The position numbers and the translations under genes are program-made. From IMG/VR virus record IMGVR_UViG_3300025901_000007, positions 1 through 34,344 of that record: 34,344 nt of DNA. One strand, written 5' to 3'. This stretch comes from a virus. This document shows, piece after piece, positions 30,308 to 32,526 of this stretch. How positions within the stretch are numbered: position 1 is the stretch's first letter; the number at the start of each line of letters is the position of its first letter. The notes under the pieces are model-generated. The model was not told the DNA's origin. It saw only the letters and a program-made list of their open reading frames with translations, and did not search any database.

Positions 30308-32422
30308 ATGGACGATGCTACAGGACCCTATGCGGCCGCCGCATGGCAGTACCGCACCGCGGGGTACGCGGGGATCATCCCGATCGGACGCGAACCAGCG
30401 CAGAAGTCGCCACCACTGGCCGGGTACACCGGATGGGCCGGCGTCGATCCGTCCGGTGCGGACGTGCAGACGTGGGTGGACGGACGCGAAGGCGCCCGCA
30501 ACATCGGCTGGCACATCCCGCGCGGATACGTGGGTGTGGACGTGGACGCGTACCACCGTGGGGACGAGTCCCTGCGGAAGCTGGAAGACAAGATCGGACG
30601 TCCGCTCCCGGCCACGTGGACGAGCACCGCGCGGGGCGCCACGTCCGTCACCCGGCACCACTTCTACCGCGCCGACCTACCCGAGGGGCGCACCTGGCGG
30701 GACCATCCAGGCGCCGGCATCGACTCGCTGCACGTCGGCCACAGGTACGCGATGGTCTGGCCGTCCGTCAACCCGGACTGCGGTATGGCCACCGTGTGCT
30801 GGTACGACCCGACCGGCGAACTGTACGAGGGGGTACCCGATCCGGCCTGGTTCACCGCGCTCGACCCGGCCTTCATCGACGAACTGAGCCATGAGGGCAC
30901 GCCGCTCGAGGGGACCGGCGCCGATGATGCCGAGACGCGCTCGGCGATCGAGCGGATGCGCCCCGGGCCACCCTGCCCGCGGGTGAGCACGCACCTCGGC
31001 CGGGAGCTGGACCGGATCCGGCGGGCCGTCGACGGGACCGGCAGCCTGCACGAGCCGGGCGGGCTGTACCCGCTGGTGGCCTACGGGCTGGAAGGCCACG
31101 CGGGCGTACGTGAGGCGTTGTCCACGCACCAGGTGGCCTACGTCAAGGCCAGGTCGGACGGGCGCGGCGAGACCGAGGCGGTGGGGGACGCGGACTGGTG
31201 GCGTCAGGTCCGCGGTGCCGTCGGCAAGAAGCTGCACGCGGCCGGCGGCGCGATCCTGACCGGCTGCGACTGCGGCGAGCAGGCGCAATCGGACAGTTCG
31301 GCAACGCATCCGGCGGACAGCAACGCGCGACGCACTCTACGGATCATCCGTGGGTCGCAGATCGTCATGCGGGCTACCCGATGGTTCTGGGAAGAGGATG
31401 ACGCGAAGTGGATGCCGTTGGGTGGGTTGACCCTGCTCGGCGGACGTGAGGGTATCGGCAAGAGCACGTGGGGCTACCGGCTGGCCGCGTTGCTCACGCG
31501 TGGTGCCCTGCCCGGCACCTTCCATGGTCAACCGAAGGCCGTGGTAGTGGTGGCCGGTGAGGACGCATGGGATCAGACCATCGCGCCGCGACTGGCCGCG
31601 GCCGGCGCCGATCTGGAGCTGGTGCTGCGGGTGGACGCCGTGCAGCCGGATGGCGCACTCGACGGGTTGAGCCTGCCCGAGGACACCGCGGCACTCACGG
31701 CGTTGTGCCACGCCGAAAACGTAGGCATGGTGCTGCTGGACCCGCTGCTCACGGTGGTCTCGGCCAAGCTGGACACGCACAAGGACGCGGAAGTGCGTAA
31801 AGCCCTCGGTCCGCTGTCCCGCCTGGCGGATGAGACGCAGACCAGCGTCATCGGGTTGATCCACGTCAACAAGAGCCAGGGGAACGATCTGCTCACGCGA
31901 CTCATGGCATCTCGGGCGTTCGCCGCGGTCGCCAGGTCCGTCCTGGTGTGCAACAAGGTCGAAAACGTCGACGCGTTGATGGGTGCGTCGGAATCGTTCC
32001 TGTTCGGGCAGGCCAAGAGCAACCTCGGCAAGCGGGCGGCATTCAGCTACCGGTACACGATCGAGGGTGCGCGGGTCGGCTATGACAAACAACTCCAACA
32101 GGACATCTGGAGCAGTCGGATCAACATTGAAGCGAAGGTCACCGGGACTATTGATGATCTCGTGGCGGAGCAGGAAACTCCGAAGCGTGACGCTCCTAAG
32201 ACCTCCGAGGCTCTCGATTGGCTGGTCGACTTCCTCAGGTCGGCTGGAGCTGTATGTGCTTCCGCCGGTGTGCCCTCCCAGCAGGCGAAGGCGGCAGCAA
32301 CTACAGCGGGTCACACAGAGCGAGCAATCCGTAATGCTAGAGAAAAGAACATAACGGTCATCTCTACAGCACATAACCCAAATGGCCCTGGCACCGTCTG
32401 GTACCTGGCTCCTACTAGTTAG
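30308..32422 (+). CDS. Bifunctional primase-polymerase / RecA-fold helicase
   Basis: 704 aa. The N-terminal prim-pol domain (about 1-200) has GVDVDAY (76-82, catalytic Asp pair) and, later, VTRHHFYR (114-121) and GIDSLHVGHRYAMVWPS (137-153). Residues about 340-600 form a RecA/RepA-like ATPase: Walker A GGREGIGKST (378-387), AGEDAWDQT, and Walker B MVLLDPLLT (474-482). The C-terminal about 75 residues look like a winged helix. Such proteins both prime and unwind at phage and plasmid origins. ATG 30308 has GGAG 5 nt upstream (30299-30302). An iteron array starts at its stop codon, supporting a cis-acting replication initiator-origin pair. Confidence 0.88.
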   Translation: MDDATGPYAAAAWQYRTAGYAGIIPIGREPAQKSPPLAGYTGWAGVDPSGADVQTWVDGREGARNIGWHIPRGYVGVDVDAYHRGDESLRKLEDKIGRPLPATWTSTARGATSVTRHHFYRADLPEGRTWRDHPGAGIDSLHVGHRYAMVWPSVNPDCGMATVCWYDPTGELYEGVPDPAWFTALDPAFIDELSHEGTPLEGTGADDAETRSAIERMRPGPPCPRVSTHLGRELDRIRRAVDGTGSLHEPGGLYPLVAYGLEGHAGVREALSTHQVAYVKARSDGRGETEAVGDADWWRQVRGAVGKKLHAAGGAILTGCDCGEQAQSDSSATHPADSNARRTLRIIRGSQIVMRATRWFWEEDDAKWMPLGGLTLLGGREGIGKSTWGYRLAALLTRGALPGTFHGQPKAVVVVAGEDAWDQTIAPRLAAAGADLELVLRVDAVQPDGALDGLSLPEDTAALTALCHAENVGMVLLDPLLTVVSAKLDTHKDAEVRKALGPLSRLADETQTSVIGLIHVNKSQGNDLLTRLMASRAFAAVARSVLVCNKVENVDALMGASESFLFGQAKSNLGKRAAFSYRYTIEGARVGYDKQLQQDIWSSRINIEAKVTGTIDDLVAEQETPKRDAPKTSEALDWLVDFLRSAGAVCASAGVPSQQAKAAATTAGHTERAIRNAREKNITVISTAHNPNGPGTVWYLAPTS

Positions 32423-32475
32423 ACGTCATGGACGTCATGGACGTCATGGACGTCATGGAAGTCATGGAAGTCATG
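32422..32475 (+). repeat. Tandem 9-bp iterons
   Basis: Six contiguous units without spacing: GACGTCATG four times (32422-32457) then GAAGTCATG twice (32458-32475). The first base is the last base of the prim-pol stop codon. Inverted copies (CATGACTTC at 32502-32510 and 32511-32519, then CATGACGCC) follow on the other side of a 20-bp core. Confidence 0.95.
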
Positions 32476-32526
32476 ATCTATGGTAAGGACGTGGTTAAGA
32501 TCATGACTTCCATGACTTCCATGACG
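32451..32526. repeat. Perfect 28-bp inverted repeat around a promoter-like core
   Basis: Left arm 32451-32478 (begins CGTCATGG, ends CATGATC) and right arm 32499-32526 (begins GATCATGA, ends CCATGACG) are exact reverse complements. The 20-bp spacer 32479-32498 (TATGGTAAGG then ACGTGGTTAA) closely resembles the phage promoter motif, with a TAAGAT -10 hexamer at 32496-32501 on the + strand reaching into the right arm. Confidence 0.9.

Follow-up and report, generated by a model that had tools for sequence, protein, structure and literature searches.

The Sulfolobus plasmid pRN1 needs a stem-loop located 3′ of its prim-pol/helicase gene, the structure of which is kept while its sequence drifts, and phage BIP-1 likewise has a large stem-loop origin just 3′ of a Prim-Pol–helicase fusion gene (PMC4234260). 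The origins of PICIs and SaPIs also lie immediately 3′ of rep (PMC6092414, PMC7581432), and those of PICIs comprise two sets of iterons flanking an AT-rich region (PMC6092414). Mobile elements are known to encode fusions of a RepA-type helicase with an AEP primase (PMC5862659).

The window, by which we mean the whole stretch of DNA analysed here (34344 bp, recorded as a virus in IMG/VR), carries genes for phage terminase, portal–capsid, tail, helicase and replication functions. Directly 3′ of its replication gene, rep, lies a repeat element that is very probably a replication origin and that would form a rep–ori module with the preceding gene. The direct basis of this reading is the repeats, their position directly 3′ of rep, the low G+C content and an architecture that is conserved in relatives with a different Rep. 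The features of the locus are as follows.

30308–32422, plus strand: putative replication initiator Rep, with an N-terminal Prim-Pol (AEP primase/polymerase) domain and a C-terminal RecA-type ATPase domain (AAA_25, RepA-like helicase), from Pfam, PHROG and motifs
32422–32475, plus strand: six contiguous 9 bp iterons, four times GACGTCATG and then twice GAAGTCATG, from TRF and a unit scan
32451–32479, plus strand: left arm of a perfect 29 bp inverted repeat, including the last iterons (z of −13 when folded as DNA)
32477–32500, plus strand: TCTATGGTAAGGACGTGGTTAAGA, a degenerate version of the phage promoter/operator motif that spans the loop and the arm edges, from its matrix score
32480–32497, no strand: loop of 18 nt, from the repeat search
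32498–32526, minus strand: right arm of the perfect 29 bp inverted repeat, from the repeat search
32502–32528, minus strand: three inverted iteron units, twice CATGACTTC and once CATGACGCC, from TRF and the unit scan
32547–32555, plus strand: seventh direct iteron, an exact GACGTCATG, from the unit scan
32581–32700, no strand: AT-rich segment, with a G+C content that ranks among the lowest in the genome, and candidate DNA-unwinding element
32701–32724, plus strand: intact motif copy for the next gene, with a TAAGGT −10 element 6 nt before the ATG (leaderless spacing), from the motif matrix
32731–33126, plus strand: gene of the endonuclease VII family (Pfam, 1e-15)

The 29 bp perfect stem 3′ of rep, with its fold z of −13, recalls the stem-loops of pRN1 and BIP-1. 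On the other hand, the Rep of pRN1 has an SF3 helicase, whereas that of the window has a RecA-type AAA_25 domain; the pRN1 origin is described as having no iterons, whereas the arms here are built of 9 bp iterons; and the loop measures 18 nt, compared with 58 in pRN1. As in PICIs and SaPIs, the origin candidate lies immediately 3′ of rep, its iterons beginning on the last base of the stop codon, and it holds two sets of short iterons (six direct and three inverted units). However, the AT-rich region that separates the two sets in PICIs is found here to their right, with only the 18 nt loop between them, and the helicase of the window Rep is RecA-type and not SaPI-type. Moreover, PICIs and SaPIs are satellites devoid of capsid genes of their own, whereas the window belongs to a tailed phage in which we found terminase, portal–capsid and tail tape-measure genes, and thus structural genes of its own. 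We therefore do not claim membership of the pRN1 type, since the SF3 helicase was tested and not found, nor of the PICIs, since the AT-rich spacer and the satellite lifestyle were likewise tested and not found. The oriV of RSF1010 shares with the window a RepA-type hexameric helicase, iterons and hairpins for priming, but uses three separate proteins and has ssi hairpins distinct from its iterons (PMC4234260). As far as its sequence goes, the origin candidate of the window is a variant on the known rep–ori layout, namely an iteron array and a stem-loop behind a Prim-Pol/RecA-type Rep, and it is because these elements are combined in this place that we commit ourselves to a putative rep–ori module.

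Rep is assigned to DNA primase/polymerase by PHROG, matches the Pfam families Prim-Pol (7e-12, residues 15–167) and AAA_25 (3e-23, residues 355–524) and has DVD and Walker A motifs in its sequence. We found no close relatives of its Prim-Pol in IMG/VR, in the GTDB genome contigs or in INPHARED (where the search included the DNA level), and two near-identical left-arm relatives of the window (L008 and L009, with 94 and 93% identical DNA, respectively) have no match to it in their records. Relatives of Prim-Pol/AAA_25 replication proteins are present in several actinobacterial phage groups. A PDB search with Rep gave no meaningful match, and no convincing match was obtained from Pfam for its C-terminus, where Reps of the pRN1 type have a winged-helix DNA-binding domain. 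The single-sequence AlphaFold model ends in a helix–helix-hairpin, but has a pLDDT of 35 and is useless at that confidence.

The sequence-only reading of this DNA had reported six contiguous 9 bp repeats starting at the stop codon of the prim-pol gene, and this is indeed what TRF finds at 32422–32475 (6.0 copies, 97% match), the first G of the array being the last base of the TAG stop codon of rep (32422). The exact unit GACGTCATG occurs seven times in the window, compared with 0.7 expected; five of these copies are located here (at 32422, 32431, 32440, 32449 and 32547), the remaining two being singletons at 17203 and 21152. The last units were said to form one arm of an exact 28 bp inverted repeat. 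They lie within the left arm (32451–32479) and the repeat is perfect, but its arms are 29 bp long (32451–32479 and 32498–32526, separated by an 18 nt loop in which 8 bases are G or C). Overlooked at that time were the inverted units, which start at 32502, 32511 and 32520, and the seventh direct iteron. We simulated the window 40 times with a first-order Markov model, which keeps its dinucleotide make-up; no perfect inverted repeat in these sequences (with loops of at most 60) was longer than 13 bp, compared with the 29 bp observed, and the inverted-repeat segment folded as DNA has a z of −13. The lowest-G+C 100 bp windows of the whole record start at 32581–32651 (0.43–0.47) and at 32411–32441; the AT-rich segment lies beside (to the right of) the two iteron sets and not between them. 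An open frame of 34 codons over the repeats (MDVMDVM…) was rejected as a gene, since a 9 bp unit readily leaves a frame open. The cumulative GC skew has its minimum close to the repeat element, at 30004; we dropped it as evidence for an origin, as it coincides with a switch of gene strand and thus proves nothing.

A long hairpin that comes right after a stop codon, the next gene having a promoter of its own further on, could also terminate transcription or stabilize the 3′ end of the rep mRNA. An intrinsic terminator is expected to combine a G+C-rich hairpin, a short loop and a T-run; nothing terminator-like was found within 32300–32800 and no T-run follows the arms, whereas the terminator-type hairpins found elsewhere in the genome (at 20793 and 24180) are, by reading, G+C-rich with short loops. 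In addition, a terminator needs neither tandem 9 bp units nor extra inverted copies of them, and we consider this explanation highly improbable. The repeats might instead serve purely as operators, bound by a repressor or by Rep in control of its own expression, and take no part in initiation: any regulator might occupy tandem sites, and iterons bound by Rep in other systems often autoregulate as well. Yet the array is positioned downstream of rep and not upstream, exact units are found elsewhere only as the two singletons, and the operator-like motif that is scattered over this genome has another sequence; we consider this explanation, too, highly improbable.

This dispersed motif is AAGAACGTGGTAAGCT, the full form of which is a near-palindrome, CTTACCAAGAACNTGGTAAG, overlapping a TGn-TAnnnT −10 element. 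Eight clear copies are present in the window (18776–18799, 21863–21886, 22598–22621, 23890–23913, 24152–24175, 25649–25672 and 29949–29972 on the minus strand; 32701–32724 on the plus strand). In six of the eight, TGn-TAnnnT is placed 6–7 nt before an ATG, a spacing expected of leaderless transcripts, and the motif, which is common to the relatives G010, G011 and G013, seems to be promoter and operator in one, serving leaderless genes. As the promoter motif of this phage family we took AAGAACNTGGTAAGnT with TGn-TAnnnT, usually with a start codon 6–7 nt further on, and we built a scoring matrix from the eight clear copies. The copy in the loop, TCTATGGTAAGGACGTGGTTAAGA, scores 11.8 bits, whereas the true copies score 34.7–42.1 bits and no unrelated site of the window scores above 5.3 bits. 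The resemblance is real, since it stands well above that unrelated site, and the description of the inverted-repeat core as a degenerate copy of the promoter motif was therefore right. The further proposal, that the loop is a working promoter and that binding of the initiator or cruciform extrusion toggles the element between transcription and replication, was not supported. The −10 element of the copy, TAAGAT, does conform to TAnnnT, but one base inserted between TG and the −10 element breaks the spacing of the true copies, the core is AAGGAC and not AAGAAC, and the −10 element runs into the inverted-repeat arm with no gene start 6–7 nt downstream, so that the copy departs from the promoter motif in score, in spacing and in gene start. 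The next gene (32731) is served by its own intact copy at 32701–32724. A consensus scan, of a kind that does not cover extended −10 promoters, gave no sigma-70 promoter here; moreover, on reading, the motif is missing from the loops of four relatives (G013, G010, L049 and L053), and motif-like copies are found outside the inverted repeat in G013, G010 and L053. The loop copy is thus probably not a working promoter and may be fortuitous or have an accessory role, and a dual switch at this element appears very unlikely.

The reading of the element as an origin draws further on relatives that carry a different Rep. Two of these, G010 and G013 (40–41 kb), were reached via the motif and the helicase gene. 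Their right arms are syntenic with that of the window (an exonuclease-like gene, the helicase, small genes, the replication slot and endonuclease VII, this last gene being the right neighbour of the slot and conserved between both relatives and the window), and their slot is occupied by a D5/SF3-type protein of 716–735 amino acids with no detectable similarity to the window Rep. Directly after the Rep stop codon, both have a perfect inverted repeat with tandem 9 bp units, with GGGAGGAGA and 23 bp arms in G013 and GGGAGGATA and 19 bp arms in G010; the repeat sequence differs from that of the window. Two further relatives of the D5/SF3 Rep family, found with alignments, have GTGTGA-based 9 bp units likewise directly 3′ of rep, within a perfect inverted repeat of 23 bp in L049 (fold z of −7.8) and an inverted repeat of 22 bp with one mismatch in L053 (fold z of −8.5). 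The arms are spaced by 44–48 nt in G013, G010 and L049, which also speaks against a terminator, and L053 has a further inner stem. We favour a rep–ori module because these relatives keep the architecture with an unrelated Rep and a different sequence, and the idea of an origin with iterons and an initiator beside the prim-pol gene is well supported by such same-layout relatives and by the literature precedent. Judging by this comparison, syntenic phages may exchange initiator and origin jointly, as one cassette, and the position and geometry of the origin may persist while protein and sequence both change. When the iteron pattern was searched for in IMG/VR, a single contig matched (L004), which we judged to be unrelated on reading. 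G010 also has long perfect inverted repeats away from rep, at 6336–6381 and 6766–6797 (arms of 20 and 16 bp).

Recognition of iterons by the C-terminus of Rep has been shown for Cch2 and is described for SaPI Rep (PMC7581432). The Rep C-termini of G013 and G010 are 66% identical and their units are near-identical, with one base different; those of L053 and L049 are 53% identical and both go with GTGTGA units. G013 and L053, on the other hand, are 47% identical in the body of the protein up to about residue 669, with unrelated C-terminal tails and different units. These pairs fit a recognition of the iterons by the C-terminus, although four proteins are few.

As a control, we took the 165 genes called in the three genomes (the window, G013 and G010) and counted, for each, the inverted 8-mer pairs within 300 bp downstream of its stop codon: the rep genes rank first, second and third, with 48, 24 and 17 pairs, the fourth-ranking gene having 12. 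We then extended the comparison to 41 phage rep loci from INPHARED and IMG/VR/GTDB, with Reps of D5/SF3, Prim-Pol and AAA_25 types, several of them related and thus not independent samples. Inverted words are enriched 3′ of rep in 21 of the 41 (p < 0.01) and in two more loci (L077 and L079) at p < 0.03. Under a strict definition of a cluster, 11 of 27 loci score, where the density in the remainder of these loci predicts 0.62, and GMA4 and Jojo24 lie just outside the distance limit of this definition. Inverted short iterons directly 3′ of the primase–helicase gene are found in AcaML1, T25 and S. thermophilus phages (for the latter, compare the Sfi21 origin), and these phages of the P4-type/D5 primase group resemble the window in this respect, but with a D5/SF3 Rep, a different primase and other iteron sequences. 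Of the loci with an AAA_25 or a Prim-Pol Rep, those of Boilgate (with CAGTCGGTGCA units in both orientations), Jojo24, Reyja, L087, L088, L090, L091 and L093 have the layout and belong to the 21 enriched loci. It is absent in about half of the rep loci surveyed, including those of the AAA_25 or Prim-Pol Reps of Feyre, Rando14, REQ1, Ashwin, Fransoyer, L073 and L076, and it is not universal because Feyre-type phages, in which rep overlaps the next gene, a helicase, have no repeats 3′ of rep. Finally, it should be noted that 9 bp is commonly the top period in rep 3′ regions, but that control 3′ regions, too, often have a period of 9 or another multiple of 3, so that the 9 bp period alone is weak evidence.

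From this layout we infer origin activity of the element, and with it protein binding, melting, priming and direction. The Prim-Pol/AAA_25 protein would bind the 9 bp units via a DNA-binding region, most likely its C-terminus, and could form rings on both arrays, the direct and the inverted one, that face each other over the inverted repeat. As the 29 bp repeat bends or is extruded as a cruciform and the adjacent AT-rich segment melts, single strands would be exposed, onto which the RecA-type domain could load as a helicase while the Prim-Pol domain would make the first primers. A 9 bp step falls about 51° short of a full helical turn, so that each successive unit might face the next of six subunits in a ring; the six direct units would then be the footprint of one hexamer. 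Unrelated initiators, D5/SF3-type and Prim-Pol/RecA-type, might share one geometry of inverted contiguous 9 bp arrays immediately 3′ of rep. We put this reading as a whole forward as a tentative and rather unlikely generalization.

The element provides a precise candidate origin for a phage group in which initiation is unstudied, as well as for Prim-Pol/AAA_25 replication proteins. If the position and geometry of origins persist as suggested above, origins should be locatable by inverted repeats 3′ of the primase–helicase gene, and scanning the 300 bp that follow this gene for short repeats in inverted orientation would be a simple origin finder for phage genomes.

Some further observations concern the genome as a whole. 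The window is probably a near complete genome with a natural terminus at position 1, since L008 (94% identical) starts at the window's own first base and L011 and L013 continue from the HNH gene at the right end of the window into its left end. Rfam gave no match over the whole window; the minus strand encodes a tRNA-Pro (GGG) at 25530–25602, with a copy of the promoter/operator motif just upstream of it. The gene of an FtsK/HerA-like ATPase (19081–20781) lies on the strand opposite to its neighbours and is about 67% identical in G010, and a perfect 26 bp palindrome, TGTGGACATTGATATCAATGTCCACA, is found at the start of the tape-measure gene (8801–8826). Finally, 2004–5054 is a single frame of 1016 amino acids, the first part of which matches a portal protein and the second part a major head protein; by these matches it looks like a portal–capsid fusion, which is also present at full length in several IMG/VR relatives.
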